Virus record (IMG/VR): IMGVR_UViG_3300028829_006345
Coordinates: 1 to 45,108 of that record
Direction: 5' to 3' (one strand)
Length of the DNA: 45,108 nt
From: a virus
Made by a program: the position numbers and the translations under genes. Positions 1 to 21,322 of this stretch are shown piece after piece. The notes under the pieces are model-generated. The model did not search any database. It was given only the letters and a program-made list of their open reading frames with translations, and was not told where the DNA came from. Within the stretch, counting starts at the first letter, position 1, and every line of letters begins with the position of its first letter.

Positions 1-234
1 GTGCGTTTGCGAGATGTTGATGTGGAAGTGATTGTTGTCCGAAGATTTACAAACTTTGTCACGGAAGAAAAAGTTGATCAATTAGGACAAGAACTAGTCG
101 CATGGGTTCAGAAGAATCAAGAGTATACAAATAATACTCGAGTAGAAGGACCTGTTCGTGTAGCAAGATTTGATCCAATGTGGACAATACCTTTTCTTCG
201 TAGAAATGAAATACATTTATTAGTAGATATTTAA
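1..234 (+). CDS. SOUL family heme-binding protein, C-terminal part (5' end outside window)
   Basis: The visible 77 residues match the C-terminal half of SOUL/HBP-type heme-binding proteins. They show a VRLRDV-type strand, then VVRRF, then an EEKVDQLGQEL helix, and close with the family's signature end, FDPMWTIPFLRRNEIHL. Complete members are usually about 180-200 residues, so the gene starts upstream. The GTG at position 1 reads as an interior valine, not a start. SOUL proteins bind heme or other tetrapyrroles in the cytoplasm or periplasm, and their roles in bacteria are poorly defined. The stop codon at 232-234 is followed directly by the ATG of the first PilZ gene, so it is probably the upstream member of the same operon. 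The family call rests on the sequence pattern; a role in the phage is unknown. Confidence 0.82.
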   Translation: MRLRDVDVEVIVVRRFTNFVTEEKVDQLGQELVAWVQKNQEYTNNTRVEGPVRVARFDPMWTIPFLRRNEIHLLVDI

Positions 235-630
235 ATGAAAGATAATAATCCTGCAGTGAAATATATTGATACTCCAGGTTATCGTGGAGATGACCGCAGA
301 AGACCAGAAAATTCTCCAAGAGTTCCATGTATGGTTCCTGTTACTGTTGATGATGAATCACCAGATAAGGAACCATATTATGGAAAAGTAATGAATATCG
401 CCCATGGAGGTTGTAAACTATTCACACATGAACTAGTGAATCAATCTGCTTTATTGAAAATTACCTTCTATTTGCAAAGAGGTAATGATTTTCAAAAGTG
501 TACACCAATCACTGGTCGTGTAGTCCATGTACATAGAAAAGGATCAAATTATGTTGTGAATGTAGATTTTCGTGGTGCTGTTTTTCATGAACATGGTATC
601 CAAGAACTTATAGATTTAAATTCAAAATGA
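235..630 (+). CDS. PilZ-like domain protein with degenerate c-di-GMP motifs (PilZ paralogue 1)
   Basis: This 131-residue protein has the layout of a stand-alone PilZ domain: an Arg-rich stretch at residues 21-29 (RRR then R29), a beta-rich core, and an N54-I-A56-H-G-G59 turn where canonical PilZ has D/N-x-S-x-x-G. The exact RxxxR spacing is missing (about three extra residues between the arginines), and Ala replaces the motif Ser, so c-di-GMP binding may be weak or lost. It shares with the second PilZ protein (ending 1818) the GC(K/R) after the turn and a C-terminal EHGIxE(L/I) block, so the two look like paralogues. It abuts the SOUL gene with no gap, and its stop overlaps the next start (ATGA). 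It could be a partner or non-binding variant of the second PilZ protein. Confidence 0.72.
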   Translation: MKDNNPAVKYIDTPGYRGDDRRRPENSPRVPCMVPVTVDDESPDKEPYYGKVMNIAHGGCKLFTHELVNQSALLKITFYLQRGNDFQKCTPITGRVVHVHRKGSNYVVNVDFRGAVFHEHGIQELIDLNSK

Positions 631-755
631 AATTATTGATTTTTTCTTTTATTGCGTTTGCAATTTCATCCTGTAGTTCCAGCAGCTATAAACTTTGTGA
701 TGTAGAATATTATGAAAGAGCCTGGTCAACTGCTGATTTAAACCGGTGTATTTAA
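627..755 (+). CDS. small predicted lipoprotein, 42 residues
   Basis: The ATG at 627 overlaps the preceding TGA (ATGA), indicating translational coupling. The product has a Lys at position 2, a hydrophobic segment (residues 3-13), and an I-S-S-C lipobox with Cys16, followed by a Ser run and a short charged tail ending at residue 42 (stop 753-755). This is the pattern of a signal-peptidase II lipoprotein. It would leave only about 27 mature residues anchored in a membrane. Phage lipoproteins this small include outer-membrane spanins (Rz1-like), but no partner inner-membrane spanin is visible nearby and there is no proline-rich tail. Its place inside a signalling operon suggests another role, such as surface modulation. 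Function unknown. Confidence 0.6.
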   Translation: MKLLIFSFIAFAISSCSSSSYKLCDVEYYERAWSTADLNRCI

Positions 756-773
756 TACCTACGAGCAACTAAT

Positions 774-1397
774 ATGGACAAACAATTATTAAAAGACATT
801 AATAATGTTATTAATGAAAAAGATGAACTTGATGAAAAAATTGTACCTGCTGGAAATACAAAACAAAATTGGAACGTTTCTCTTCCGGCAGCTAAAGAAC
901 GTGCAGAAGCGCAAACCCAAGAAAGAAGAAAAAAAGAGAGGCGAGAAAAAGTTCTTTCTGATGATGAAAGAAAAAAGATTGTTGATAAAAGAATGGCGGA
1001 AAGAAGACAAGCAAGTGATAAGGAAGGTGGCACAAAGAAAAAAGAAGACATTTATCATGAAATCAATAATATTGTGAACACAATTGATAAAAATAAAAGT
1101 GGTAAAAAGAATGATTTGAAGGATCGTATTAAAAGTAAAATGTCTGAAGATGTTGCAAGCCGGACACAAAACTATAGACCTGAAGATTTAAAAACTTTAT
1201 CAAATACCTCAACAGGAGAAAATAAAAAACGAAGAAGTCAAACACCTGAAATGAAAAAAGAAGCTGAACGAATGCTTGATATAGTAAAACAAAAATTTTC
1301 AAAATTAATTGCTCAAGGGAATTACAACCAAGTGATTTCTACATTGAAACGATTAACAGAGGAAAATGAGAACAACAATGCCAACAAAACAAAATAA
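774..1397 (+). CDS. highly charged, probably helical/coiled-coil protein of unknown function
   Basis: The product has 207 residues and is dominated by Lys, Glu, Asp, Asn and Arg, with long predicted helices (residues about 40-85 and 155-205) and no Cys or Trp-rich core. I recognise no domain. There is no signal peptide, so it should be cytoplasmic. It lies between the lipoprotein gene (18-base gap) and the second PilZ gene, whose start lies inside its last codons, so it belongs to the same transcript and is probably translationally coupled to the PilZ protein. A scaffold or partner for the PilZ/cyclase proteins is only an inference. The opposite-strand frames over this A-rich gene are shadows. 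Confidence 0.65.
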   Translation: MDKQLLKDINNVINEKDELDEKIVPAGNTKQNWNVSLPAAKERAEAQTQERRKKERREKVLSDDERKKIVDKRMAERRQASDKEGGTKKKEDIYHEINNIVNTIDKNKSGKKNDLKDRIKSKMSEDVASRTQNYRPEDLKTLSNTSTGENKKRRSQTPEMKKEAERMLDIVKQKFSKLIAQGNYNQVISTLKRLTEENENNNANKTK

Positions 1398-1818
1398 ACG
1401 AGGAGCAGAGCGTTACCGGGTTTTATTACCGGCACAAATGACTGCGCCTCATGCACAAGGGGTAATGGTTCGTGTAGTTGATATAAGTTCTGCTGGTTGC
1501 CGTTTCATGACAAAGGCATCTTTAAATATTCAGACTTCAATCACCATGCAATTTTATAAAGCAGTAGAACATGTTGATGAAGAAACAAAACAAATTCATA
1601 TCAAACATGTTCCATGTCATAATATTAGTTGCCGAATTGTGAGATTATTTAAATCAGCAGAAAAAAACACAAATGTATATTGTGCCGAATTTATGGGTGT
1701 AATTTTACCAGAACATGGTATTCATGAAATTCTCACCGACCTTGAAACAGTTCGTAAAGATAATCGTGCCGCAAAAATTAATTCCGCTGCGGTGGAAAAG
1801 GAAACATATAAAGAATGA
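1366..1818 (+). CDS. PilZ-domain c-di-GMP-binding protein (PilZ paralogue 2)
   Basis: This 150-residue single-domain protein carries both canonical c-di-GMP motifs: R12-G-A-E-R16 (RxxxR) and D39-I-S41-S-A-G44 (DxSxxG). PilZ proteins are cytoplasmic receptors that switch motility, exopolysaccharide or pilus functions when c-di-GMP binds. The C-terminal half shares the EHGIxE(I/L) block with the first PilZ protein. The start is uncertain. ATG 1366 has AGAGGA only three bases upstream; ATG 1378 (residue 5) has a GAG at seven bases and gives MPTKQNKRG. Both lie inside the preceding gene. The stop (TGA 1816-1818) overlaps the cyclase ATG at 1815. The intact motifs suggest a working c-di-GMP receptor carried by the phage. 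Confidence 0.85.
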   Translation: MRTTMPTKQNKRGAERYRVLLPAQMTAPHAQGVMVRVVDISSAGCRFMTKASLNIQTSITMQFYKAVEHVDEETKQIHIKHVPCHNISCRIVRLFKSAEKNTNVYCAEFMGVILPEHGIHEILTDLETVRKDNRAAKINSAAVEKETYKE

Positions 1819-3947
1819 AATCTATTATTCTCTTTTTGTGTGTGCTGTTGATTTCATTTTCAGCATACGCAAAAGAGACATTTGTTCTTACTTCAAAAGA
1901 TGAAGTTAAAATAGATTTAGTTAAGCATGTATACTTTCTTGAAACCGAGCAACGTTTTTGGTCTGGTAGCAATTTCTCGTTCTCCGAATTAGCAGAAGCT
2001 AATTGGCAAGATTCATTAAAAAATCAGAGAAGTTATATTCGTGGCTTTTGGTTAAAGCTTGTAGTTTTTAATAAAACAAATTATACATACTTTGGTTTAG
2101 GTCATGAAAATTTAGATCAATCAATTGTATATACAGAAGTTCGTAATAATGTAGAAAAGAATACATACATTCATAAAGAGACTTCAATTCTTGATTCACT
2201 CACCGGTCAAGATTTCTATGACAATATGCAAATTCGCATACCTCACAATTCATCCGCAAACATTTATACTTGGATTCAAACTGACAACTTCAATCGTTGG
2301 TATGGAATTACAAGACCATATGAACAAATATATTTGACCGAGTGGGCTCAATTACAAAAAGATGTTTTGTTTACAATCGGCACAAAAGCCGCATTTGTAA
2401 TTTTTGCTTGGACATTCACTCTGTATTTTATCATCACCCTTCTAATTAATTTTCGACAAGTTAATTTATTTCTGTTCACAATTACTGCAGCAACTGCAAG
2501 TTTATATACATTTGGTGAAATTGGTATTGGCTATTTAATTCACATGCCAAAGATGTTTACTATTTCAAATCTATATGCAATTGTAGTTGCAACTGGAATA
2601 TTAGCTTATAATCAATTTGTTTACATGATGATCCAAGGTGAACGTTTTTATCCAATTCTTAAAAAGATTCAGATAGGAACACAATCAGTTACTACCGCCG
2701 CTTTATTTGCAAATATAATTTTATTGTTTTTCTTTCCTACAAAATTTGAAACAGACCTTATAAAATATCCATTATTCGATATTCCATTAGGACCTTCATT
2801 TGTTCCGCCATTGTCAATTATTATTTTTTGGGTGATACAATTGGTACCATTGATTGTGTTTGCTGCAATTTCAACAAAACACGGAAAGGTATATTCAATT
2901 TCTTTGTTAACAAGTATGGTCTTTTTATTATTGATACCATTAAAATATATTTTAATTTTAAGATTTAATGTACCTTTTGATGCATTACCAAGTTCTGAAT
3001 TTTTATTAGGTGGTTTAATTTGTCTATTAGGTGTTACCGCAACACTCAAGATTCGTCAAACAGAAGCAGAGCAATTAACTGATCAATTAAAACTTAAAGA
3101 ATCATATGCAAGATTTGTACCTGAAGAATTGAATTTATTACTGAATAAAAAAAGAATCACTGATGTAACTCTTGGTGATCAAAAAGAATATGATATGTCA
3201 ATTTTATTCACAGACATTCGTGGGTTTACTACAATCAGTGAAAAGATGACACCAGAAGAAAACTTTAAATTCATCAATGATTTTCTAGTTCATATGACAC
3301 CAATAGTCCGTGAGAACAATGGTTTCGTGAATAAATTTATTGGTGATAGTATCATGGCAATTTTTCATAATGATATTACTGATGCTGTTCAATGTTCAAT
3401 TGAAATGATCAAAAAACTTCAATTGTTTAATAATTATTTAATTGATTCAGCATATGATCCAATTAAAATTGGTGTTGGTGTAAACTCAGGCAAATTAATG
3501 TTAGGTACACTTGGAACACATGACCGAATGGAAGCATCTGTTATTGGTGATGCAGTCAATCTTGCTTCACGATTGGAAGCATTAACCAAGTATTATAATT
3601 GCCCGGTGCTATTATCTGGACATACTGTCCAGAAGCTTCCAGAGTCTCGCTACCGGCTTCGAATGATCGATAGCGTAGCAGTAAAAGGTAAAGAAGAAAA
3701 AACTGATATTTTTCAACTTTTGGATGTTTATACAGAACCGATGATTGAATTGAAGCAAAGACTTTTACCGCTTTTTGATCGAGCATATGATGCATTCATG
3801 AATGAAGAATTTATTCGTGCCGATTTAATGTTCAAGGAAATTATTGCAGAAGATCCATCTGACCATATTGCAAAACTTTATATTGAACGTTGTGAGGATG
3901 AAGGTGAGCATATGTCAGCAGAAAGAAGAAGAATTTTCTTTTTATGA
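1815..3947 (+). CDS. membrane class III adenylate cyclase with 7TMR-DISM-like sensor
   Basis: The 710-residue protein has an N-terminal signal peptide (residues 1-19), a 7TMR-DISM-like extracytoplasmic domain (about 20-175, with the family's FWLKLVVFN-type strand), seven hydrophobic helices (about 185-413), a class III cyclase domain (about 450-640) and a short TPR-like tail (about 655-700). All key catalytic residues are present: metal-binding D467 (FTDIRGFT) and D511 (GDSIMA), adenine-selecting K507 with S575, and transition-state N582 and R586. It should make cAMP from ATP at the inner membrane in response to a periplasmic signal. The domain order is common in spirochaetes and some other Gram-negatives. 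It overlaps the PilZ stop by ATGA and ends the operon. Finding this gene in a tailed phage is unusual. Confidence 0.9.
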   Translation: MKSIILFLCVLLISFSAYAKETFVLTSKDEVKIDLVKHVYFLETEQRFWSGSNFSFSELAEANWQDSLKNQRSYIRGFWLKLVVFNKTNYTYFGLGHENLDQSIVYTEVRNNVEKNTYIHKETSILDSLTGQDFYDNMQIRIPHNSSANIYTWIQTDNFNRWYGITRPYEQIYLTEWAQLQKDVLFTIGTKAAFVIFAWTFTLYFIITLLINFRQVNLFLFTITAATASLYTFGEIGIGYLIHMPKMFTISNLYAIVVATGILAYNQFVYMMIQGERFYPILKKIQIGTQSVTTAALFANIILLFFFPTKFETDLIKYPLFDIPLGPSFVPPLSIIIFWVIQLVPLIVFAAISTKHGKVYSISLLTSMVFLLLIPLKYILILRFNVPFDALPSSEFLLGGLICLLGVTATLKIRQTEAEQLTDQLKLKESYARFVPEELNLLLNKKRITDVTLGDQKEYDMSILFTDIRGFTTISEKMTPEENFKFINDFLVHMTPIVRENNGFVNKFIGDSIMAIFHNDITDAVQCSIEMIKKLQLFNNYLIDSAYDPIKIGVGVNSGKLMLGTLGTHDRMEASVIGDAVNLASRLEALTKYYNCPVLLSGHTVQKLPESRYRLRMIDSVAVKGKEEKTDIFQLLDVYTEPMIELKQRLLPLFDRAYDAFMNEEFIRADLMFKEIIAEDPSDHIAKLYIERCEDEGEHMSAERRRIFFL

Positions 3948-3948
3948 C

Positions 3949-3978
3949 TTGACATTACGTTTACATCTGATATGATCA
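3949..3978 (+). promoter_or_regulatory. sigma70-type extended -10 promoter for the zinc-finger gene
   Basis: TTGACA (3949-3954), a 16-base spacer and TATGAT (3971-3976) with TG one base upstream (3968-3969) form a strong extended -10 promoter. It begins right at the end of the cyclase gene and lies about 30 bases before the ATG at 4009. The 17-base block TACATNTGATATRATCA at 3962-3978 recurs in front of the helicase gene at 41284-41300. Confidence 0.8.
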
Positions 3979-4008: not shown

Positions 4009-4503
4009 ATGTCACATCCATTCGAAGAAACCCTCGCCGGTTCAACGCCAGACTACACTTTTACTCGCCTAACTGTTGGTGGTGAACACTGCAATCACTG
4101 TGGACGACCAATCAAATATCTCTGCCATATTGAAGATGCAAAAGGTCAAGAATATATTGTAGGTACTACTTGTGTTGAAAAGACGAATGATGCAACCATT
4201 GGGAAACCGATGAAACATGCTTTGGATGATCTTCGTAAGAAAATGCGACACAACAAAAAGGTTGAAGAACGTTCTCGAAGAAGAAGAGAACGATTTAACA
4301 CCAAGTGGTCACCAATCATGAAAGTCCTTGCAGACACACCAGGACACTTTGCAAGGTCTGTGCTTGAAGGACTTCGCAATGAAGTTGAGCCAAGAGGACG
4401 AGGTATTGAAGTCTGCTGTAAAATTTATGCAGAATTCCTAGCAAAACGAGGATCAGACTTTGAGATTGAATTCAAACGAATGCACAACCGTTTGATGTAT
4501 TAA
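4009..4503 (+). CDS. small phage protein with a CxxC zinc-finger-like N-terminus
   Basis: The product is 164 residues. C28-N-H-C31-G, C39 and a G-T-T-C55-V-E-K segment form a zinc-ribbon-like site shared by many uncharacterised phage proteins. Residues 75-100 are very basic (RSRRRRERF) and suggest nucleic-acid contact. The ATG at 4009 is chosen because AAAGGAG lies at a proper distance; a longer TTG reading would begin inside the -10 region of the promoter. The gene has its own strong promoter and is probably expressed early. Its stop (4501-4503) overlaps the stop of the opposite-strand gene by two bases. The exact function is unknown. A DNA/RNA-binding or host-takeover role is inference. Confidence 0.75.
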   Translation: MSHPFEETLAGSTPDYTFTRLTVGGEHCNHCGRPIKYLCHIEDAKGQEYIVGTTCVEKTNDATIGKPMKHALDDLRKKMRHNKKVEERSRRRRERFNTKWSPIMKVLADTPGHFARSVLEGLRNEVEPRGRGIEVCCKIYAEFLAKRGSDFEIEFKRMHNRLMY

Positions 4504-4951: not shown

Positions 4952-7249
4952 ATGTCTTCTATTCAAAGTTTAGTTACCACGAATACATTCGGCGAATGGA
5001 TGTATCGTATTAATGATTTAGTTACTGAGAATAATTCAGCAACTGCTATTGGCTCTCCAAATGCTCTCGTCCGTTTTGATTTAAATAACACACTTGAATT
5101 TAATCACTGTAACATTGAAACGTTAACTGCAAATGCATCAATCACAATTGGCGCCGGTCCTACAGTTTCAAACATCGCAACAGATATGCATCTTGTTGAT
5201 GATAGTACATTAGTTACTGCAAAAGGTATTGATGATTATGTTACAACTAAATTTAATAGTTTAATTGGTGGTGCAAATACAGCATATGATACATTAAAAG
5301 AACTTGAAAACGAACTTAAAAATAATGACAATGATATAACATCTATTCTAACTTCAATTGGAACAAAAGTAAATAAACCTGCTTCTTCTTTTGTAACAGC
5401 CAGCAATGAGTACTTACAATGGAATGGCTCATCACTAACAAAAAGTGCCATCAATGTTCGCACAAATGCGGAGATTGAAGAATTGATCTCAAAATCAAGT
5501 GGTATTGGTTTGAAAAATCAAATTAATATTATTAATGCAGATAACTCAAGAGAAGCGAGTCCAGAATGGATTATATTTCAAACTTATTTACCAAACAATA
5601 GTACAGATTTAACTACAGCACTTGCTAGTGGTCAGAATGCAGCAACCATATTTAACAATTGGAGAAGGTTCTCACATTCAACTTCAGGACCAAATGCTAG
5701 TGAATTAAATGCATTTGTTTATGACGCCGCAAATGAACATATTGATTGTACAATTAACACATCAACTTATGTTGGTTTTTTGAGCGCAAAACAATTTGAT
5801 GATTATGAACTTGATGTTCAATTAACTGCAGCAAGTGGTCCAGCTGGTGCAGATAATGATCGAATGGGATTAGTGATTGCTTCTACAGAGGACAGTGGTA
5901 TTGACTATACACTATCTGCAATTCGTAATCATGATAACAATGGAGTATCATGGGCAATATATTATAATTATTTACAATCTTCTGAATCAACAATCATTGA
6001 TGGTACTTCGACAGTGCCGCATAAAGTAGCACAGGCAAATTGGAGTACAATGCCAAATGGTACAAGTATTCGAATTCGTAGAGAGGGTGATATTATAAAA
6101 TGTTGGACAACACAAGATGATGAAACAACAATTGATACAAATACACTACTTGAGATTGATCTAAAATCTGATTTAAAACTTGAAAAATTTCGTGGTAAAA
6201 AATCATATGGATATGCCTGTTTCTCACAAGGAGCACGTTTTTCAAATATCAATTTTATAAATTATGCTCAAGATAAATTTGAAGAATATGTTTTTGATAT
6301 AAGTTCAACGCCTGTGGCAGTTTATAAACCACAAAGTGATGGTACGTTTACGCTCGAAGCTGGTGAAACTCTTAGTTCTGCTATTGGCCCAGGAAGATTA
6401 GTTCGTGATCGACTAACAGGACTATTATATTATATTGACCTTGACGGCAGTTTGATCAATATTACATCTGAAGGTTTTCAAAATATTGAATTTAATAAAA
6501 GCATTTTACTTGGCTCAAAAGCAAATGTAAGTTATGCGAATGATACTACATCTGGTGAAACAGGAATTGATAATTCAGGTATTGGTCTTGGACCTTCAGT
6601 AGCCCATGAACATTCATTACCTATTCTTGGTGGTCAAATACAAGATTCAGTTAATATTGCTGCACCATGGATGTATGCTCATGCCATTGAAGATATTACA
6701 TCAAGAAATTATCTTAGCAATGGGATCTTGCTTAGTGACCAAGCACGAACACCATCTGATCAAACTGTATCACCAAGTCATGTTGGCATTTTTGCTGGTG
6801 GTGATCTGACATGTACAATCGGTGTAAGTGGTCTTGATATGTTGACAAATCCGATCACCGGTGCATCCACAATCACTGCAGATGGTGATATCAAATCAAT
6901 GACAGGTGATATTCTTGCCGCAGCATCTGATGACCGTTTGAAAACAGTATTGAGTCCGATTAAAGATGCACTTGATAAAATTGCAAACCTTGATACATTT
7001 GCCTTTGCATATAATTCAACAGCAAATGATTTAGGATTTGATATGAATAATCATGTTGGTGTTAGCGCACAACAACTTGAAAAAGTCATGCCAGAGTTAG
7101 TGAGACTTGCGCCAGTAGACGATAACGGAGAAGGCGTATCAGTATCAGGTGAAAATTATTTAACTGTTGATTATCCTAAACTTTCTGTGCTTTTGCTTAA
7201 AGCCATTCAAGAACTTAAACAAGAAATTGATGAACTTAAAAACAAATGA
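4952..7249 (+). CDS. tail fibre/spike protein with C-terminal S74 intramolecular chaperone
   Basis: The protein has 765 residues. The last 107 residues are an endosialidase-type intramolecular chaperone (peptidase S74): S659-D660-D-R-L-K marks the self-cleavage site and catalytic dyad, followed by GVSAQQLEKVMPE, LTVDYPKL and a LLKAIQELKQEI coiled coil. The chaperone drives trimer folding and is then cut off before S659. Residues about 200-440 look like a beta-sandwich, carbohydrate-binding-like domain. The N-terminal 150 residues, with Asn/Thr-rich strands, may attach to the virion. The last codons overlap the next gene's ATG (ATGA), so both fibre genes are co-translated. It probably binds the host receptor. 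The exact attachment partner is unknown. Confidence 0.88.
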   Translation: MSSIQSLVTTNTFGEWMYRINDLVTENNSATAIGSPNALVRFDLNNTLEFNHCNIETLTANASITIGAGPTVSNIATDMHLVDDSTLVTAKGIDDYVTTKFNSLIGGANTAYDTLKELENELKNNDNDITSILTSIGTKVNKPASSFVTASNEYLQWNGSSLTKSAINVRTNAEIEELISKSSGIGLKNQINIINADNSREASPEWIIFQTYLPNNSTDLTTALASGQNAATIFNNWRRFSHSTSGPNASELNAFVYDAANEHIDCTINTSTYVGFLSAKQFDDYELDVQLTAASGPAGADNDRMGLVIASTEDSGIDYTLSAIRNHDNNGVSWAIYYNYLQSSESTIIDGTSTVPHKVAQANWSTMPNGTSIRIRREGDIIKCWTTQDDETTIDTNTLLEIDLKSDLKLEKFRGKKSYGYACFSQGARFSNINFINYAQDKFEEYVFDISSTPVAVYKPQSDGTFTLEAGETLSSAIGPGRLVRDRLTGLLYYIDLDGSLINITSEGFQNIEFNKSILLGSKANVSYANDTTSGETGIDNSGIGLGPSVAHEHSLPILGGQIQDSVNIAAPWMYAHAIEDITSRNYLSNGILLSDQARTPSDQTVSPSHVGIFAGGDLTCTIGVSGLDMLTNPITGASTITADGDIKSMTGDILAAASDDRLKTVLSPIKDALDKIANLDTFAFAYNSTANDLGFDMNNHVGVSAQQLEKVMPELVRLAPVDDNGEGVSVSGENYLTVDYPKLSVLLLKAIQELKQEIDELKNK

Positions 7250-11146: not shown

Positions 11147-14100
11147 TCACGCAATACAATCAGAACTTATATAATCGTTTACTTCCGGCAATGTTCGTAT
11201 ATTATCTAAGTACTCTTTTTTATTTATAGTAAAATCATAAGCCTCTAACATATTTAGTTCGTAAATCCTGATAATACCTCCCGCACTAAATGTTTCATTA
11301 TTTGCTGTTGTGAAATAGAATATTTCAAATGTATTTGCAACAGTATTACCAGTTGTTATGTTGCATCCGGGTGTATTGTAAACACCTGTTCTTTTTTCCC
11401 AAGTATCTCCATTTGCTGTATTTGCATTTAATCCTTTTGTATGAAGGAATTCAATTGTTGGATGAAATGTAATTACAGCATTTGAACCATTTGCAAAGTC
11501 TGCTTCATAATCAGCCCAATTTGTATATTTAACTCCGTCAACCATATATGTTGAATTCGCATCACCAAAAATCAAGTTCGCTGAATCCATACGATTATCT
11601 TCATATATATCTGCTAAACCTAAAGCGAATGCTCCATTGGTATGTGTATTGGCAATATCAGTGATTCGAAATTCATATCTTTCAAAAGATGCCATTTCAA
11701 TTGTACGATTTGCTAACGGTCCATTATTTACAGGATCAATTGTTTGGTCATTTAATTCTGTAAAGAAATTTCTGTTCTTATCAAGAATATATGCTGGACC
11801 AGATTTATCAAAAAATAAGTCTTTGTTATGAACATTTGTTGAATCATATGGAAAAGTATAATTCGGATCTTGAGAATATGCGTTTACTGCATCATCATCA
11901 ATTAATGGTAATAACGCCTCAACTCCTTGAAGCTTGACATTTGATGATTTTACATATTGATTATAAATTTCTGAACGAGATGCTAAAGGTAAGCAGGCAT
12001 CTTTTGGATAGTAAACACCAAGTCTTTGTGAACCATATGAATTATGAAATGTAATTGAGTTTGCAAATGGTGAACCTTCTGCAACATATTCCATTGATAA
12101 TTTTTGTTCATCAAGTTTTGTAAAACATGTATTACCAGAAACAGTATTCGCATTTGGCATTTGAGAATAGATTTCACTTTCAGTTCGAATATCCGTCATG
12201 TCAAATACATCAACAGGAACATGTACAAATTCTTCGATTGGTTTTGTCATGTACTCGGATACCCAGTCATTTGCTGACATCTTCCAAGTTAACTTATTAT
12301 TATTCTTACCATATTTTTCAATACCAACTGGATAGAACATTATCGATCTTTGCTCATCAAGTTGTATTCTTGAAATTATATCACCATTTTCATCAAGTGA
12401 ATCTGGCAACATCTCTGCTTTTATTTGAGTTTCTGCACGAATTGATGTTTCTTTGAAAATCATTTGATTCTCAACCATTTGATCGAAACTAAATGTTGTT
12501 TCTATATCAGCCTCTTGAAGGTCTGTTGTAAGTTTAAATGTCCAACGATCTTGAATCCATTGTTTATTACCATATGCAGAATGTATTGGTCTATTGATTA
12601 ATCTCTGCTCTGCTGGTCCACCAGAAACTTCAGGTATTGTCATATTCGGATCAAGCCGATAATGTAAATAATCTGCCAATACCCAATCTTCAAACCAATC
12701 TTTTGTTTGCCTTTGCATACCAAGTGTTGACCGATCATTATACATGAATGTGTGTAAATCGAGTTCCTGTCTCTCAAATGTCAGGCTCATATTCAAAAAT
12801 ATATCTTGTTCTTGCAATGCCGTGTATACAAATTCATATTCTGGTTTCATGTTTACTGTATTTGCATTTACAATATAAACTTCTGGATCAACTGCACCAA
12901 AGATTGCTTTATCACCAATCCAATCTGTTAGTCTCAGTTTATATACATCCTCAGTTAGTGGCTGGATAAAGCCCATACCAAACCATTGCTCAATTGGTAT
13001 TGGTTTAGTTAAATCAAAATAAGTCGCTCGTTGTACAATCTTATTCTCAAACTCGATATCATTAATTGGTGTAGTTTCAAATGTCTGGTCAATATATGAA
13101 TCATGTGTTGTTGTTTCAAATAAGAATGTATTTGATTGAATATCATGGTGATATGTTCGTAGCGATTCAATTGATGGTCTACTATCAATTGTCATCCTTG
13201 GTATTGCATAGCCATCATCCCATGTAATTTCTTTTCCTAAATCAAACCATACACTATCATGAATATATTCATCTGCAAGATAATGTGGAATACGATCATT
13301 CATGTTAACTAACCGATGTCGATCAGGTATATGAATATTTCTTTCGTGTTCACCTTCAAGTTCGACTTTACCAGTTACATCATTAAATGTTGCTTCATCA
13401 TATAATGTTAATGCGGTAAAGTATTCTACATTTGCATTATGCTCATAGACAACTTCAATTTCAGGTAATGTTTTGAATTTTGGTGTGTGTATTGTAGAAT
13501 ACTGGTCACGAATACTTGTTCGTAAAAGTGCATCTGTAATGATTTCATCATACCAAGGACCAATACTATCACTGAGATTAATTGTATAATCACCCCACAA
13601 TGTTGTTACAAATTCAATTTCATTTTGTGGATCCGCATCATGAGATATATCAATTTCTTGATGGAAATTTTCACCAGTAAAGACTGTATAGTAGAATGTA
13701 TTGCTTGGAAGGTCGTGCTTTTCCTCTCTTGCTGGCACAATTGATGGCATTGGATCAACTCTCATTGTTGGCATATGAGCTTTTCCATTTTCAACAATAG
13801 GAAAAATCAATGATTTTTTTGTGATGATCCATTTTTCCCAACGCCCTTCAGTTGGCTTTTCATCAAGAGGTATTGTACTCCAACGATCAAACATATTGAT
13901 AATATATTCAACTTCATTATCAGCATCAGCATCATGAGATATATCAATTTCTTGATGTAAGTTTTCACCTGTAAGTATAGTATCTGAGAATGTGTTTGCC
14001 TGTAAGTCATGTTTATGATGACCAGATACTCCAACAGAAGGTCTACTGTCGACAGTTACAACAGGTATACGATCAAGTACATAATCCAAAATTGGATACT

Positions 14101-17100
14101 TCATCATGTTTTCATAGATGTAATCATAGTATTTTGCAGCAATAACTTTATTCTTATCAATTACAATATTACGATCAAGAATATCAATTACAATTTCTAT
14201 TTCATTCTCTTCATCTGTATCATGTGAAACATCCAAGTCTGATGTAAATGGAATTGTTGTCATTGTTTCATAGGTTGCCGTCATAACATTATTACGATAC
14301 TGTTCAATTTCATTAAATGGTGTTAAACGAACAGTTGGAATATATTCATCAACATAATCAGAAATAGTATAAATCTGTGGTCGTGCCGGTAATAAATTAT
14401 AATATTTTGATGAAATAATATCATCAAGATTTAATAGCATCCACCGGTCTCTCAAATTCATTACATACTCTAATTCCGGATTGTCATCAAGTCGGAACTC
14501 TGCATCAATCATTCGATGGAAATCATCACGGCTATCAACTCTTGGTGCCTCACGCATAGGAGGCATTGTATGTGTTAAAGTAGTTGTTGTATTTGCATTT
14601 GCTGTATTTGCTTTCTTAACATTTTGTCCTAATTCAGTATCTGCATTGGCTTTAATTATCATTAAGTTATGTCGATACGTTTCAATCTCATTGAAAGCAA
14701 AGGCCTGTACAGTTGGAATATATTTCCAAGGATTATCTGTAAGTTCATAGTTACCCATATTTGGTTGAATATACTTCCAGAATTTTGAAGCAATAATATC
14801 ATTTAAGTCAATAATCTTACCACGGTCTTTTAAATCAATAATTATCTCACTCTCATTTTCCTCATTAAATTCAGACATCATTTCAACATCTTGGTCTGCA
14901 TGACGTATTAATGATGAAACAATGTGAGCAGTTGAATTCGTTAGTACTTCATCAGTCTTTCTAATTTTAGTTAAACCTTTTACACGAACTGTTGGAATAT
15001 ATTGTAAATTACTTTGTACAATTTCATTCTTCTGTATATCTCGTCCAATCGAATCAAACATTTTTTCACTGATAATATCATCAAGTGACAAGTATTTCCA
15101 ACGGTCATTAATTGGTATTGATATTTCATTTTCAGTAAGAATTTCTTTTATCTGGAATTGATTATCAATCAATTGACTAAATGTATATGTTGGGAAGGTA
15201 TCTGCTTCAACAATCCATGTATTTGGTTGTTGGGTTTGTATTTGTATTGTCTCTTGACTAACTTTTGTTGAGTACATCATGTCTCGAGTATAATCACGGA
15301 TTGTTCCTCGTAAGAAACAATCTGTAATCTTCGTATACATGAATGTCTTAATTAGATCTTCTTGAGCGATTGCACAGTTTCGTGAACGTATTTCATTATT
15401 AATATAAACATAATGTTCTCCATAATATGAATCAAGTCTTACATCACCAATGCCATCCGTGATTACAGTCACCTCGGATAAATTAGAATCTTCTGGGTCT
15501 GAGAATATTGCTTGCCAAACATCAGCTTGCATATTTTTCGATACATCATTAATGATTGATGGCCATAAGAACAATTCATTTCTTTGTAAACGTTCTGGGC
15601 CAGGACAATCATCCGTTATGTAAGCTTGAATAAAGTACCTTTCAAAATATGCAATGGTATCTGTATAACGAATTGGCTTGCAAGAAAGAATATCAGTTAC
15701 AACTTCAATTTCTTGTGTCTGTATTGTTTCAATTGTTTCGGTGACTTCAGTTGGTGCATGATAAACAATTGTTTCTACATCTTCAAGTTCAATACTCATG
15801 TCTCTATGTTCAACATTGTAGAAGTAGTAATCACCTACGGCAACTGTACCTTCAGTTGTATCTGGTGGACATCCACCTGTTCGTGATAAGAACGGATGAA
15901 TTTTCATTTTTAAATATCGGTCAATAAATGTATGATGATAAATCCATCCATAGTCACAAACATACACATCATTGTAATTTACAAGTGTTTGTTCCGATGA
16001 AGCGATTAATGGTACGACATGTCCGGAATGAATATCATCAAATTTATAATCGATGTTATCATCAAATGTAGTTTTCTTTCCTTGATAATCAAAGAAGGGT
16101 CCTTTGATATATTCTAATGGTTGTTCAAGAACAAGTTTTGCTTCAACATCTCTAAATGGAGAAGCATCAATTTCAAGCACACAATCTCCAGCACCTACAT
16201 CAAATGGTGATTCTCCACTTTCAATTGCAATTACATATTCTGGATCAACATATGGTTTGATTGCGCCTCGGCTATTATCAAATTTAGGAAACTTAGTTCG
16301 TGACCATCCATACCGATTATCTCCATCATCAAATGCTGCTGCATAATTATGCGGTCCGTATCCATCAATTTCATAAATCATTTTAAGATTTAATGTTACA
16401 TTTACATCCTCATCATAAGGGAATGGAGTATACCGAGTACTACAATCTTTATAGAGCCAACCATATCGATCAAATTTGGTATCTTCTTGTGTGAAGTTTA
16501 GTGCGGAGTTGTCAAGAGTCTTCGGAGCAAAGTCGCGGGTATAATATTGAATATCTTCTCTACCAAAATTAATACCGTCAGCATCAAAGAATAAGTGAAT
16601 ACAATCTAAGTCAAATTTTTCTGGTTTATGACCACTATCCCAGCCTTCGGCACTATATTGAGCTTTATTATAATCTAAGTCAAATGTATAAATTAAGCTA
16701 TCAAAGAATTTTTTTTTTGGGTCGATTCTGTAGTTTTTAATCGTTGCGACAATAGCAGTACCAAAGTTTTCACGGATGCGCACAAATTCAGAACCGCCAT
16801 ATTTTGCTGGAGCTTTACCCTCAGCCTCACTTGATAATGTTTGGTTTGCAATTATATTCTGTTCATTTTTTAGATACCGAGCATTCTTTTTATCAAAACT
16901 GAATGCGCTTTCAATTGAATCAAATAAATTATGATAACGAAGAAGTTCATCAGGAAGTTCTGTATAATTTCGAGCACCTAATGAAGAATCCCAAAGCAAA
17001 GTATTTCCATCTTCTGAGAATCTTTGATTTCGATATTGTAATACGGTTGTATTGGCGGCATCCATTGAACCATAAACTGCAGTTGGTGGGTCAATTGGTT

Positions 17101-20100
17101 GATTATCCCAAGACATTTTCAATGAAAGAAACTTAGGATAAAGACCAATATCCTGTTCAGTTGTCAAAGTTGATACTGGTTTCATTGATGCACTTTGATC
17201 ACCAAGGTCAAGCATCGTATATTGTATTAACTCAGTATTTTGCTTTTCTTGAATTTCTCCATTTGCAGTATTTGCTTTTTCAAAATAAGGACTATCGGGT
17301 AGAAATCCACCAATGGTACCATGATAATCAATATTAACTTTTGTGTCATAAATTAAAGGTGTTTCAGTTACAACAGGTTTATTTGTAATAGCAATCGCTT
17401 GTTGTGCAAACGTTCTTGTACCGAATACTTTAAATCGTGAAGCAGTATCAGAAAATTCTGCGGCTTTTGATTTATCAAAAGTTATAGTGTCCCAAAATCC
17501 TTGATTTCGGTCAAATACAGGTCCGTCAAGATTTAATATTTTTGCTGAATTAATTCGTGTTTCTTCAAACCATGTATTTGATATTCCGAGTATGGCACTA
17601 TTCGATTCAATATTATACTGAAATTGATTGATATTGATTTTGATACCACTTTCTAAATGATCATAATTCCATAAGGTTGGTGATTCTGCTGGTATATCAA
17701 TTTTAGGCAGCATTTCTCGATCACGAATTTCGAGTGCAATTTGTAATGCATTCAATTCAGATTCACCAACTCTCATTTTATCAGAAACTGCTATACCTTC
17801 TTTATAATCTGCAAATTGTAAACAATAAACATATCCTGTATATTCAACTAAAAATTTATGACAATTTGTTACAGGTACATAATCTGTAATTGAATTGCCC
17901 GTACCAGTAACAGATAAAGGATCAACAATTCCAAAACTATGATTAACAAATCTAGGTAAATTTATTCTCTCTGCTTTCCATAATTCAGCTTTAATTTTAG
18001 GCTGTTCACGGTCATCAAATAAGACTAGGTTTTGTCTTGGTGTTACATGAAATGATATACGATTATAATCCGTAATTCGATACATGTATCCAGTATATTC
18101 TTGACGAATTATATCTGTTGGATGTAACCAAACTGTCTCACCTCGGTCATTAATTGTGGCGACTATATCACTTTGTCGAATATATTGTATTTGAACAAAG
18201 CCACGATTCCGTGTAAGTACTTCTGTTGTAGGTAAATAAGAACCACGATATTCAATTGTATTGCCAGATATCGTAGGTGTATAAGCATTTGCTGGTGCAT
18301 TTGAAAAATTTCTTGCGTTGTGATCGTGCCAATCAGCAGTACAACGATTCGGCCCACCACCATCATCTGAAAAATCTGGTTCCGCAGGATCAATTCCTAA
18401 TGCTGCAGCATTAAAAGCACTCTTATCTAAATCCCAAAGCCAAAATGGATTTTCTGTAAAGTTTACAGGATAGGCATCATAGAATCGATTTTCATGACTG
18501 TTTCGTGAATGTTCTGTATCCATGAAAACATTTGAACCTTCGCCCATCGAATCTCGTATGAGTATTCTTTTACCTGGATTATTACCAACGGTTCGGTCAA
18601 TAATTTCTTCAACAGTGGCAACATGATTATTAATTTGCTTATCTCTTCGATCTGCAATTTTACCACCATATGCCTCAATTATATCTGTTTTCCAATTAGC
18701 TTGATCTTCAACGTTAATTAATTTTACAAATGATTCAACTGCTACATGACCATCATAATGAAATTGTTCTTGAATTAATTTTTGATATTCTTTTGTTGTT
18801 CCATATCCTACTAATTTGCATCCACCAGTACCATCAAATCTACCATAAGGTGGACTTGTTTCAATTGAATCAAAAGTAATTTCATAATCAGATTGACTTG
18901 CACTTGTATTACCATTATCAAATGATAATGAAGAACCTTCACATTTACGAAACTCTGTAAACGTGCTACTTGCTGGACGAATTAAAACATCCTCAACATA
19001 AAATTTAAATGCTTCAAACGCATCAACAAAAGCAGTTTCTTCGAATCTCGGGAAAACTTCTGTTTCTTTAATTGTACCATCAACCTTTGCATCAACTTCA
19101 ACTCGAGTGTAGAAATCTCTTTCTTCATTCGATTCCAATTCCATTTTCTTATGTGTGATTTGAATTCTCTGAATTGCTTCATGTGTATCAATCATACATT
19201 TTGCAGTCTCTGTATAGATTTCAATTTTTGGAAATGCAGTAACTTTCATATGTTGTTGCAATTCCCAATCCATACGATTTCGAACAAATGCAATAAAGCC
19301 AGCAGGATGCAAATCATCAAACAAATTCATATCAATATCTTCAGGTTTTAAGCTAGTGATGATTTCATATGAATATGTTTGATAATAATAATTATCTTGA
19401 ATATGTTTTTCAGAAGACAGATTACTATTATTTTCATGAAAGAATGGTATTGGATCGAATAGAATTGTTTCTTCAAGTTCAATCCCAGCAGAAAGTCCAT
19501 GTATGATATTTGGATTATCATAATCACGAAGTTCTGGTTTGTCTAAGAATTTAACTTGATCGTCTAAATCAGCTAATAGACCGGCTTGTGTTGATTGTAC
19601 TCTCGCAACACCATATCCAAGTTCAGGTTCAATATGTGAAACGTTTGCGAGTCCTTCCCATGAATTAAGTGCCTTAACTGGTAATGTTAATAATTCATTT
19701 TTGTTATAAGTATCAAACAAGATATCAGATAACGTTAGTGTATTACCTGTCGGATAGAATTCGACATTTGCAGATGCAATTTGATTGTTTGCTTGTAGCC
19801 AACGAGGTGCAATAAAACGATGAACATGGAAATCTTCTGTCAGCATATTTGTGTTTGACAAAAAGATTCCATTACTGATTGATTTGATGCCTTGAAAATA
19901 AGCTGGCTCACCGTCAATTAAAACAAATGTATTTGCATCCAGCGAATATGTATTTGGATGCTGTAAGTCAAATGTTAGATCATAATACTGAGTAATGTGT
20001 GCAATTTTATTTGTATTAATTACTTTGGCAGAGGGTGCAAATTTATAATCAAGTCCAGATTTATTGATTTGAAGTTTATCAATTGCACCAAGTTCTTGCC

Positions 20101-21322
20101 AAACTCCTGGTAAATGAGATAAAGAATTTGCGTGTCCAAAAATTGTAGGAGAATTGTTTGCAATGAAATCAGTCAAATTTAGATGTAGAAATGAACTGAC
20201 TTGTTGAAATTTCATTACAGTGTTCAAATGAAATGCATAATCTGAAAACTGATAATCTGTTTGAACAGTTTGAACTTCAGCATTTGCAAATGCAGTTGCA
20301 TCACGGTATTCGTTATCAAATTCAATAACATCACCTGGAGAATGTAAATAACCCGGATTCAAAACATTGATTTGAGTAACAGAATATTCTTCTTGACCAA
20401 CAACTTCACCGATACCATCAGCAAAGGCAAACACATCTTTCATGTGATGACCAACACCACCATCAACAACTTTAAGTTTACCTACTGTTTTTCTTACAAA
20501 ATTTGTTGCCTTTTCTTGTCCTGTAATAATATCATAACCAATAATTTCTTCACCTTCTTCAAAAATACCATTAATGAATATTAAATCAAGGAAGGCTCGA
20601 ACATGATTATGTCTTTCTTTTACTTCGGTTGCACGAACGGTAGCAGTAGCTTTACTTTTTGTACCAACAATTCTTGTACTATAAAATCTCTCAATACTTG
20701 CGTTTACATCGATTCGCATCCAACGTCTTTGAATGTGATTCGTATCTGAAAGTTTGAGTATGTCAACTTTAGGATAGTATAATTCAATATCATCATCAAA
20801 AAAGATACGGAAGAACCAATACATGGAATCTTCAGTACCTCGTTTTTGATAATAATCAATAATTCTTTTTGACAGTGTATTTGGATCTAATCTTCGAAAG
20901 ATGCTATGATCTAAAGATATATTTCTTTTGAAATATTTTTTGTAGAGATTGCGAACTGTATCATATGCAGTATCATTTTCCATATTCTTAGCAAAGCTAA
21001 AAATATTTTGATATACATTTTTTATGATATAGATTTCACCAGATGAACCATTTAAAACAATTTCATTTTTAAAGAATGTATTTGTTTCTGTAGCATAATC
21101 AAAATAAAATTTACCGTCTGCCGCAATCTTTACGATTGCTTTTGATTTTGATAATGTTCCGTATAGTATATCACCGACCTTACAATTTTTGGCATCATTG
21201 AAGATCACTATTGATGATTCAAGAAAATCATAATATTCTTCAATGAATTTTACAAATTGAGGATATTGTTCAAGAAAGTAATTCGGAAATTGACTTTCAA
21301 TTAAATCTCTGGGTGAACTCAT
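11147..21322 (-). CDS. giant virion protein in the gp7 (baseplate wedge initiator) position, 3391 residues
   Basis: One unbroken frame of 10.2 kb. The N-terminal 210 residues match a module common in T4-like marine phage wedge proteins: SQFPNYFLEQYPQFVKFIEE at the start, then RGTEDSMYWFFRIFF about residue 161, then ELYYPKVDIL. It lies exactly between gp6 and gp8, the place of T4 gene 7 (1032 residues), so it probably nucleates the baseplate wedge. Residues about 2050-2780 hold roughly eight degenerate modules of about 99 residues (NEIE, DRW, then IPTVR-type blocks). The remainder is Asn/Thr/Asp-rich, with many aromatic positions and no enzyme motif. The start at 21322 overlaps the gp6 stop by ATGA. 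The gp7 call rests on synteny and the N-terminus; the long C-terminal part is without a recognised relative. Confidence 0.78.
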   Translation of the reverse strand: MSSPRDLIESQFPNYFLEQYPQFVKFIEEYYDFLESSIVIFNDAKNCKVGDILYGTLSKSKAIVKIAADGKFYFDYATETNTFFKNEIVLNGSSGEIYIIKNVYQNIFSFAKNMENDTAYDTVRNLYKKYFKRNISLDHSIFRRLDPNTLSKRIIDYYQKRGTEDSMYWFFRIFFDDDIELYYPKVDILKLSDTNHIQRRWMRIDVNASIERFYSTRIVGTKSKATATVRATEVKERHNHVRAFLDLIFINGIFEEGEEIIGYDIITGQEKATNFVRKTVGKLKVVDGGVGHHMKDVFAFADGIGEVVGQEEYSVTQINVLNPGYLHSPGDVIEFDNEYRDATAFANAEVQTVQTDYQFSDYAFHLNTVMKFQQVSSFLHLNLTDFIANNSPTIFGHANSLSHLPGVWQELGAIDKLQINKSGLDYKFAPSAKVINTNKIAHITQYYDLTFDLQHPNTYSLDANTFVLIDGEPAYFQGIKSISNGIFLSNTNMLTEDFHVHRFIAPRWLQANNQIASANVEFYPTGNTLTLSDILFDTYNKNELLTLPVKALNSWEGLANVSHIEPELGYGVARVQSTQAGLLADLDDQVKFLDKPELRDYDNPNIIHGLSAGIELEETILFDPIPFFHENNSNLSSEKHIQDNYYYQTYSYEIITSLKPEDIDMNLFDDLHPAGFIAFVRNRMDWELQQHMKVTAFPKIEIYTETAKCMIDTHEAIQRIQITHKKMELESNEERDFYTRVEVDAKVDGTIKETEVFPRFEETAFVDAFEAFKFYVEDVLIRPASSTFTEFRKCEGSSLSFDNGNTSASQSDYEITFDSIETSPPYGRFDGTGGCKLVGYGTTKEYQKLIQEQFHYDGHVAVESFVKLINVEDQANWKTDIIEAYGGKIADRRDKQINNHVATVEEIIDRTVGNNPGKRILIRDSMGEGSNVFMDTEHSRNSHENRFYDAYPVNFTENPFWLWDLDKSAFNAAALGIDPAEPDFSDDGGGPNRCTADWHDHNARNFSNAPANAYTPTISGNTIEYRGSYLPTTEVLTRNRGFVQIQYIRQSDIVATINDRGETVWLHPTDIIRQEYTGYMYRITDYNRISFHVTPRQNLVLFDDREQPKIKAELWKAERINLPRFVNHSFGIVDPLSVTGTGNSITDYVPVTNCHKFLVEYTGYVYCLQFADYKEGIAVSDKMRVGESELNALQIALEIRDREMLPKIDIPAESPTLWNYDHLESGIKININQFQYNIESNSAILGISNTWFEETRINSAKILNLDGPVFDRNQGFWDTITFDKSKAAEFSDTASRFKVFGTRTFAQQAIAITNKPVVTETPLIYDTKVNIDYHGTIGGFLPDSPYFEKANTANGEIQEKQNTELIQYTMLDLGDQSASMKPVSTLTTEQDIGLYPKFLSLKMSWDNQPIDPPTAVYGSMDAANTTVLQYRNQRFSEDGNTLLWDSSLGARNYTELPDELLRYHNLFDSIESAFSFDKKNARYLKNEQNIIANQTLSSEAEGKAPAKYGGSEFVRIRENFGTAIVATIKNYRIDPKKKFFDSLIYTFDLDYNKAQYSAEGWDSGHKPEKFDLDCIHLFFDADGINFGREDIQYYTRDFAPKTLDNSALNFTQEDTKFDRYGWLYKDCSTRYTPFPYDEDVNVTLNLKMIYEIDGYGPHNYAAAFDDGDNRYGWSRTKFPKFDNSRGAIKPYVDPEYVIAIESGESPFDVGAGDCVLEIDASPFRDVEAKLVLEQPLEYIKGPFFDYQGKKTTFDDNIDYKFDDIHSGHVVPLIASSEQTLVNYNDVYVCDYGWIYHHTFIDRYLKMKIHPFLSRTGGCPPDTTEGTVAVGDYYFYNVEHRDMSIELEDVETIVYHAPTEVTETIETIQTQEIEVVTDILSCKPIRYTDTIAYFERYFIQAYITDDCPGPERLQRNELFLWPSIINDVSKNMQADVWQAIFSDPEDSNLSEVTVITDGIGDVRLDSYYGEHYVYINNEIRSRNCAIAQEDLIKTFMYTKITDCFLRGTIRDYTRDMMYSTKVSQETIQIQTQQPNTWIVEADTFPTYTFSQLIDNQFQIKEILTENEISIPINDRWKYLSLDDIISEKMFDSIGRDIQKNEIVQSNLQYIPTVRVKGLTKIRKTDEVLTNSTAHIVSSLIRHADQDVEMMSEFNEENESEIIIDLKDRGKIIDLNDIIASKFWKYIQPNMGNYELTDNPWKYIPTVQAFAFNEIETYRHNLMIIKANADTELGQNVKKANTANANTTTTLTHTMPPMREAPRVDSRDDFHRMIDAEFRLDDNPELEYVMNLRDRWMLLNLDDIISSKYYNLLPARPQIYTISDYVDEYIPTVRLTPFNEIEQYRNNVMTATYETMTTIPFTSDLDVSHDTDEENEIEIVIDILDRNIVIDKNKVIAAKYYDYIYENMMKYPILDYVLDRIPVVTVDSRPSVGVSGHHKHDLQANTFSDTILTGENLHQEIDISHDADADNEVEYIINMFDRWSTIPLDEKPTEGRWEKWIITKKSLIFPIVENGKAHMPTMRVDPMPSIVPAREEKHDLPSNTFYYTVFTGENFHQEIDISHDADPQNEIEFVTTLWGDYTINLSDSIGPWYDEIITDALLRTSIRDQYSTIHTPKFKTLPEIEVVYEHNANVEYFTALTLYDEATFNDVTGKVELEGEHERNIHIPDRHRLVNMNDRIPHYLADEYIHDSVWFDLGKEITWDDGYAIPRMTIDSRPSIESLRTYHHDIQSNTFLFETTTHDSYIDQTFETTPINDIEFENKIVQRATYFDLTKPIPIEQWFGMGFIQPLTEDVYKLRLTDWIGDKAIFGAVDPEVYIVNANTVNMKPEYEFVYTALQEQDIFLNMSLTFERQELDLHTFMYNDRSTLGMQRQTKDWFEDWVLADYLHYRLDPNMTIPEVSGGPAEQRLINRPIHSAYGNKQWIQDRWTFKLTTDLQEADIETTFSFDQMVENQMIFKETSIRAETQIKAEMLPDSLDENGDIISRIQLDEQRSIMFYPVGIEKYGKNNNKLTWKMSANDWVSEYMTKPIEEFVHVPVDVFDMTDIRTESEIYSQMPNANTVSGNTCFTKLDEQKLSMEYVAEGSPFANSITFHNSYGSQRLGVYYPKDACLPLASRSEIYNQYVKSSNVKLQGVEALLPLIDDDAVNAYSQDPNYTFPYDSTNVHNKDLFFDKSGPAYILDKNRNFFTELNDQTIDPVNNGPLANRTIEMASFERYEFRITDIANTHTNGAFALGLADIYEDNRMDSANLIFGDANSTYMVDGVKYTNWADYEADFANGSNAVITFHPTIEFLHTKGLNANTANGDTWEKRTGVYNTPGCNITTGNTVANTFEIFYFTTANNETFSAGGIIRIYELNMLEAYDFTINKKEYLDNIRTLPEVNDYISSDCIA
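11221..11228 (-). promoter_or_regulatory. possible late promoter octamer upstream of gp8-like gene
   Basis: The minus strand reads TATAAATA, an exact match to the T4 late promoter -10 octamer, about 108 bases before the gp8-like start and inside the end of the giant gene. Another exact octamer occurs at 28059-28066 deep inside a gene, so such matches arise by chance in this A/T-rich sequence. Confidence 0.25.
12990..15150 (-). repeat. tandem array of about eight degenerate 99-residue modules inside the giant gene
   Basis: Each module has an acidic NE(I/V)E(F/Y/I) strand, a DRW-like turn, a (D/K)(Y/F)(Y/W) helix, and an (I/M)PT(V/M)R strand followed by an EI/SI turn and often an (S/A)NTF segment. 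The DRW-like turns fall near 15100, 14825, 14445, 14172, 13885, 13590, 13315 and 13020, an average step of about 297 bases. Weaker copies may extend on either side (near 15690, 15450, 12735). Two copies are still near-identical in DNA (13635-13680 and 13929-13974, 3 differences in 46). Confidence 0.75.

Follow-up and report, generated by a model that had tools for sequence, protein, structure and literature searches.

Adenylate cyclase genes of phages have been described within curli secretion cassettes, which have been proposed to serve aggregation, import or defence against superinfection (PMC9599517); in phage Melnitz, the curli pore has been proposed to act in the timing of lysis (PMC9004378). 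Phages are also known to target the pilus machinery through proteins that bind PilB or PilZ and block pili (PMC11656802). The DNA analyzed here (the window) is an entire IMG/VR record, IMGVR_UViG_3300028829_006345, a linear fragment of 45,108 bases that derives from a T4-like phage of an uncultured lineage. At its left end lies a signalling cassette of another composition, in which genes for a SOUL-family protein and two PilZ proteins (PilZ1 and PilZ2) precede a membrane-bound class III nucleotide cyclase. An earlier note on this DNA implied that the cyclase was itself a novelty; this does not hold in view of the published curli cassettes, and what appears to be new here are the phage PilZ proteins and the probable SOUL lipoprotein.

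Single-sequence tblastn searches in 50,697 phage records, which distant relatives can escape, matched the cyclase domain at 27-36% identity in Pelagibacter phage HTVC008M, the Methylophilales phages Melnitz and two Acinetobacter-labelled records, and found no match to PilZ1, PilZ2 or SOUL. A search of open-access literature found no report of PilZ or SOUL in phage genomes, and we found the gene combination of the cassette nowhere else.

Conservation of the four-gene core

Six open reading frames (ORFs) occupy the left end of the window on the plus strand (1-234, 235-630, 627-755, 774-1397, 1366-1818 and 1815-3947), exactly as first reported. They had also been described as joined without interruption, which is true of the junctions at 234/235, 627-630 and 1815-1818; an 18-bp gap, however, separates two ORFs at 756-773. 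The overlap at 1366-1397 measures 32 bp between the ORFs as such and 20 bp if PilZ2 starts at the ATG at 1378. Counting only Pfam calls above the curated cut-offs, four of the six belong to known families: SOUL (37.8 bits), PilZ (31.4 bits for PilZ1 and 25.4 bits for PilZ2) and Guanylate_cyc (76.4 bits).

The cyclase as query identified five further viral contigs, and an alignment query also recovered the contig of L009. Four contigs carry the core of SOUL, PilZ1, PilZ2 and cyclase genes in full or almost in full: the window, an 84-kb contig (L002), L003 and L009. L003 is 100% identical to L002 and represents the same virus; its PilZ1 gene is truncated where the contig ends, with SOUL lying beyond, while L004, L005 and L006 end within the cyclase. 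The order SOUL-PilZ1-PilZ2-cyclase is the same in three virus lineages, with junctions that are tight or overlapping, often by 4 bp. Thus the gene order recurs in two further lineages on three contigs, a check that the earlier note had suggested, but for four genes instead of the six it had listed: both middle ORFs are absent from the relatives.

Core proteins are 57-80% identical in amino acid sequence between the three lineages, with the exception of the SOUL-PilZ1 end that the window and L002 have in common. Tail-fibre and baseplate genes always lie downstream of the core, whereas the gene immediately following the cyclase varies. The linkage to tail genes in every relative, including the 84-kb contig with its DNA polymerase, UvsX, DnaB-like helicase and ribonucleotide reductase genes, gives good support to a cassette borne by phages. 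Every core gene is under purifying selection, which together with the recurring order points to more than coincidence. The ratios of nonsynonymous to synonymous substitution rates are 0.11-0.22 for PilZ1, 0.15-0.22 for the cyclase, about 0.31 for SOUL (against L009) and 0.32-0.44 for PilZ2, values that are rough because synonymous sites are close to saturation in several comparisons.

The two middle ORFs are known from the window contig only and do not occur in L002, L003 or L009, where the PilZ1 and PilZ2 genes overlap directly by ATGA. The first (627-755, plus strand), which overlaps PilZ1 by ATGA, could encode a small lipoprotein of 42 amino acids with a lipobox (AISSC); it is a doubtful gene and has no codon-usage signal, though the ORF is short. 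The second (774-1397, plus strand), inserted between PilZ1 and PilZ2, encodes a charged protein of 207 amino acids that is probably a coiled coil; it shows in-frame codon usage (0.29 bits per codon), and the protein has neither a family match nor a viral relative. No close second contig covers window positions 628-2630, so that both extra genes rest on a single assembly.

At the left end, the window and L002 share exactly the same first base and their first 144 bases are identical; across positions 1-627 of both contigs, identity then falls gradually through PilZ1, and beyond it is about 71%. No related contig reaches further than about 2 kb upstream of the cyclase. We read this pattern as recombination combined with assembly forks at shared sequence. 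For the common contig start, an assembly fork is likelier than a prophage or a real genome end, because the first 144 bases are identical in the two contigs. In the close relatives L005 and L006 (90-91%), the part of the cyclase that is present leads on to the same tail genes.

Predicted proteins of the cassette

The cyclase gene (1815-3947, plus strand) encodes a predicted adenylate cyclase of 710 amino acids (Guanylate_cyc, 2.7e-21). Hydropathy indicates a signal peptide followed by some 160 periplasmic residues and about seven hydrophobic helices (residues 193-413); the class III cyclase domain lies at residues 458-629, ahead of a helical C-terminus. The top match in the PDB is a photoactivated adenylyl cyclase (1.1e-27), and CyaB is also among the best solved relatives. 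The catalytic residues are intact: the two metal-binding aspartates (D467 and D511) and the transition-state asparagine and arginine (N582 and R586) are present in all five phage rows. The purine-specifying lysine (K507) is kept as well, while position 575 is serine in all phage rows versus threonine in 25 of 26 bacterial relatives. These catalytic and specificity-determining positions are assigned by the general rules for class III cyclases, by which Asp or Thr would be expected at position 575. The cyclase probably makes cyclic adenosine monophosphate (cAMP).

By architecture, the cyclase is likely to belong to the 7TMR-DISM receptors. A bacterial protein (L034) with the Pfam domains 7TMR-DISMED2 and 7TMR-DISM_7TM aligns with it from end to end at 29% identity overall; the hhalign profile comparison of the two covers residues 424-695 only, that is, the cyclase part. 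Scanning genome contigs with N-terminal patterns gave one poor match. An AlphaFold2 model built from five rows was too poor (predicted local distance difference test [pLDDT] 35) and was excluded from the fold search.

PilZ proteins are the commonest receptors of cyclic dimeric guanosine monophosphate (c-di-GMP). PilZ1 (235-630, plus strand) has 131 amino acids, with one PilZ domain after a disordered N-terminus of about 22 residues. In its first motif RxxxR is lost to ExxxR (ENSPR in the window and L002, ENLPR in L009) and the second is imperfect (NIAHGG in the window, NIGHGG in L002, NISHGG in L009). An AlphaFold2 model of PilZ1 (pLDDT 78.6) was compared with the PDB, and all but one of its 38 best fold matches are PilZ-domain structures, among them Alg44, MotI/DgrA, VCA0042 and MrkH. 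The sole strong match of this model among predicted viral structures is BFVD entry S5VYD7 (E-value 4.9e-5), possibly a second viral PilZ-like protein to judge by the model.

PilZ2 (1366-1818, plus strand) has 150 amino acids, or 146 from the ATG at 1378, where the gene probably starts because its relatives begin there in the alignment. It is found in every complete relative and reaches 34.9 bits against Pfam PilZ in L009. Both PilZ motifs are intact in the three lineages: RGAER and DISSAG in the window, RKEER and DISIIG in L002, and RKQDR and DLSYAG in L009. PilZ2 is therefore predicted to bind c-di-GMP, given that RxxxR and DxSxxG are both retained. Of the two c-di-GMP-binding domains assumed in the earlier note, only that of PilZ2 is supported as a candidate c-di-GMP receptor by its motifs, PilZ1 being without RxxxR. 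A PDB sequence search with PilZ2 gave no match and a search for viral relatives yielded none beyond the known contigs; its three-row profile, for which there was no positive control, found no match in 398 Pseudomonadota genomes.

The contig end truncates the SOUL gene, of which the window contains only the 3' part (1-234, plus strand; Pfam PF04832, profile positions 104-172 of 173). This fragment corresponds to about residues 180-251 of a lipoprotein of 251 amino acids in L009, which matches the profile over positions 1-172 of 173 (E-value 2.8e-37) and whose N-terminus, MKYLYLLIAAFVIQGCSIFG, contains a lipobox and is a probable lipoprotein signal. The gene had been thought to start at base 1; the supposed GTG start, however, aligns with an internal valine of the L009 protein, and the contig therefore begins inside the gene. 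The description as heme-binding goes back to SOUL family membership and amounts to no proof of heme binding.

Two further features were noticed around the SOUL gene of L009. Residues 102-124, approximately, contain a doubled stretch, MTGPVMLDANESIQMTGPVLLD, with the pattern MTGPV(M/L)LD, which to our knowledge is not in the canonical family loop. An RCC1-repeat gene (L009 1-444) ends 7 bases upstream of SOUL and is perhaps an additional member of the cassette; similar repeats occur in PHROGs, and a search for viral relatives of this gene found none beyond the known contigs.

Proposed function and alternatives

The reading to which we give the highest probability, roughly 0.45, is that the cassette reprograms the surface behaviour of the host through cAMP and c-di-GMP. 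The SOUL lipoprotein would sit at the periplasmic face of the membrane, binding or presenting a tetrapyrrole or other ligand, and the 7TMR-DISM-like receptor cyclase would sense a periplasmic signal and produce cAMP. The latter would act via the host's own cAMP receptor, as the phage contigs encode no protein that binds cyclic nucleotide monophosphates (cNMPs). PilZ2 would bind host c-di-GMP, PilZ1 would be a PilZ adaptor that has probably lost c-di-GMP binding, and together they would steer a host target such as the pilus, the flagellum or an exopolysaccharide machine. The infected cell would end up with an altered surface or altered motility, which could, for instance, limit superinfection or favour spread of the phage; effects on motility, attachment or biofilm had already been suggested and may be expected on this reading. 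The phage adenylate cyclases inside curli secretion cassettes offer a published parallel, with a surface-remodelling function (PMC9599517). Also in favour of this reading are the constant gene order, the phage surroundings on every contig, the purifying selection, the intact catalytic residues and membrane architecture of the cyclase, the PilZ2 motifs and the predicted fold of PilZ1.

Several points weigh against host reprogramming. The phage contigs have no cNMP-binding or GGDEF protein above cut-off, so that the circuit would depend on host parts; weak GGDEF matches in the relatives, below cut-off, are the cyclase domain itself. Pfam gives no 7TMR-DISM call for the N-terminal half of the cyclase. 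The incomplete contigs hide the promoter and any upstream genes, apart from the RCC1-repeat gene of L009, and co-transcription of the cassette is something we infer.

A more specific form of the proposal is a two-messenger circuit, in which the periplasmic SOUL lipoprotein would load or gate the seven-helix receptor cyclase and the PilZ pair would couple the c-di-GMP state to cAMP output. This form is doubtful. If true, no c-di-GMP effector and no SOUL protein would have been described from a phage before, and receptor cyclases, having evolved here separately from those of the curli cassettes, would have been taken up next to phage tail modules on two or more occasions.

Among the alternatives, superinfection exclusion or receptor control has a comparable standing to that circuit, which makes it unlikely as well. 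In this view the PilZ proteins would bind to, and so inactivate, a surface machine of the host (the type IV pilus, for example), with the cyclase helping to switch receptor expression, so that entry of a second phage would be prevented. As a single-domain PilZ protein without RxxxR, PilZ1 has the properties expected of an adaptor and not of a receptor, and the published phage proteins Tip, Aqs1 and Zip act on PilB or PilZ to block pili (PMC11656802). These, however, are small inhibitors from temperate phages and unrelated to PilZ domains, whereas its T4-like gene content makes the present lineage look lytic.

Two explanations have a still lower probability. The four genes could be independent cargo, separately useful accessory genes that lie side by side without joint action. 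The variable middle of the cassette, with two extra genes in the window, and its mosaic left end, where identity between the window and L002 drops from 100% to about 70% across PilZ1, would fit such a collection; against it, the order of the four genes is unchanged in three lineages, frequently with overlaps of 4 bp, although the flanks have changed. The cassette could instead time egress or lysis, with the membrane cyclase and periplasmic lipoprotein reporting the state of the envelope and cAMP setting the moment of lysis. It does have periplasmic and membrane parts, and an analogous proposal exists for the Melnitz cassette (PMC9004378), but no lysis gene was recognized beside it and no lysis role is known for PilZ proteins.

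Sequestering cyclic nucleotides is an established strategy of phage proteins, and the cassette could accordingly be imagined as a second-messenger sponge or counter-defence: the PilZ proteins would soak up c-di-GMP while the cyclase floods or depletes nucleotides, upsetting defence signalling of the host. The cyclase domain does match the PADLOC models of Pycsar cyclases. Such matches, however, reflect the common class III fold, Lys507 is kept, and there is no Pycsar effector or cNMP-binding domain; moreover, PilZ1 does not have the motif for c-di-GMP, and a sponge would have no need of the architecture of a membrane receptor. A sponge is therefore very improbable.

The last explanation is that the left end of the contig is contaminating host DNA or a chimera made in assembly. 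It could account for the first base shared with L002, the breaks of all related contigs no more than about 2 kb ahead of the cyclase and the single coverage of 628-2630, but is highly improbable. Identity to L002 decays gradually and not abruptly, L005 and L006 continue from the cyclase into the same tail genes, and other records, the 84-kb phage contig among them, have the core fused to genes for tail fibres and the baseplate; host contamination of the core was rejected because it recurs beside phage tail genes and is under purifying selection.

Should the cassette reprogram host surface behaviour as proposed, the virus would feed into both of the main second messengers by which an infected bacterium decides whether to swim or to attach. 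Whether the lifestyle of an infected cell is chosen by its phage thereby becomes a testable question.

Genomic neighbourhood and comparison with known systems

A strong, near-perfect sigma-70-like promoter (TTGACA-16-TATGAT, with TG before the -10 element, that is, an extended -10) lies at 3949-3976 on the plus strand, between the cyclase stop, which it follows immediately, and a small gene (4009-4503) whose product has a CxxC motif. By consensus match it has 11 of 12 positions and is the top of 30 regional sites. It probably starts the next unit, beginning with gene 4009-4503, and the cassette therefore probably ends at 3947. A search for T4-type late promoters within the cassette found none, nor did a search for transfer RNAs as a clue to the host.

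Further along the window, a gene at 4952-7249 (plus strand) encodes a tail fibre with a C-terminal S74 chaperone (Pfam Peptidase_S74, 8.5e-12; PHROG tail fibre families). The minus-strand genes encode T4-type baseplate and tail proteins: wedge subunits (phrog_219, phrog_261 and phrog_438), a hub/lysozyme protein and a tail tube cap. One of the wedge subunits is T4 gp6-like (21319-23163; phrog_219, 1.7e-135) with about 30% identity to T4-like cyanophages. Within the baseplate cluster lies a giant protein of 3391 amino acids (11147-21322, minus strand), whose homologue in the L009 lineage (L026 138-9251) also exceeds 3000 amino acids, its N-terminus being outside the stretch covered. The right end of the window carries a GIY-YIG homing endonuclease gene (43751-44431; PHROG match), and on the L009 contig an ORF that by eye looks similarly of GIY-YIG type (L026 12203-12826) lies between baseplate and tail-fibre genes.

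The related 84-kb contig (L002, continuing in L021-L024) encodes a family B DNA polymerase with about 40% identity to cyanophage polymerases, and its recombinase is RecA/UvsX-like. It also carries a gene for a single protein in which an N-terminal glutaredoxin domain is fused to the ribonucleotide reductase small chain (L024 3242-4462), and a gene for a full-length pyridine nucleotide-disulphide oxidoreductase of 484 amino acids (L023 6071-7525).

The components of the cassette resemble known families to different degrees. Like members of the SOUL/heme-binding protein 1 (HBP1) family, the 251-residue relative is covered over its whole length by Pfam SOUL; it weakly matches HBP1 structures and is 29-41% identical to bacterial SOUL proteins. 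The cassette protein differs in being phage-encoded and a probable lipoprotein, for which heme binding would be a prediction from the family. The single-domain PilZ structures (the Alg44 PilZ domain, MotI/DgrA, VCA0042, MrkH and YcgR) share the predicted fold of PilZ1 and the RxxxR and DxSxxG motifs of PilZ2; identities to them are 11-21%, and the cassette PilZ proteins differ from them in being phage-encoded and, for PilZ1, in the absence of RxxxR.

The bacterial 7TMR-DISM adenylate cyclases, represented by the L034 protein (PF07696, PF07695 and PF00211), have the same predicted order of signal peptide, extracellular part, seven helices and cyclase, and 41% identity across the cyclase domain; the N-terminal half of the phage proteins, unlike theirs, is not recognized by Pfam. 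The PycC cyclases of the Pycsar anti-phage system share the class III fold, and PADLOC PycC models match, but the present cyclase is a phage-encoded membrane receptor form with a purine-type Lys507 and has no Pycsar effector. Membership in Pycsar was ruled out by this lysine and by the absence of a cNMP-binding domain in the (incomplete) records.

The closest described system is the curli (type VIII secretion system) cassette of pelagiphages and Melnitz (HTVC008M AGE60353.1; Melnitz-3 QZI95054.1). There too, in a T4-like phage, a class III adenylate cyclase ends a multi-gene, surface-related cassette that adjoins genes for the baseplate or tail. The published arrangement has a further instance in viral contigs L014 and L015, whose curli cassettes contain CsgG (plus FecR in L015) and terminate in a cyclase. 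The partner genes differ: CsgF, CsgG, curlin-like repeats and FecR in HTVC008M and Melnitz versus SOUL and two PilZ proteins here. No PilZ was found in the curli-cassette phages, and CsgG, present in L014 and L015, was found in none of the (incomplete) records of the window, L002-L006 or L009. The curli-cassette cyclases are 30-36% identical to the present one over the catalytic domain only, and stand apart from it on the tree. In this catalytic-domain tree, whose bacterial rows were picked by similarity to the query and in which several long branches meet, the present-cassette cyclases form one clade (100/100) among bacterial cyclases, and the branch that separates them from the curli-cassette cyclases has a support of 94/93. 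Because they stand with bacterial cyclases and apart from those of the curli cassettes, the cassette cyclase was probably acquired separately. That two phage groups apparently gained receptor cyclases independently, each next to its tail modules, suggests an advantage that was selected more than once.

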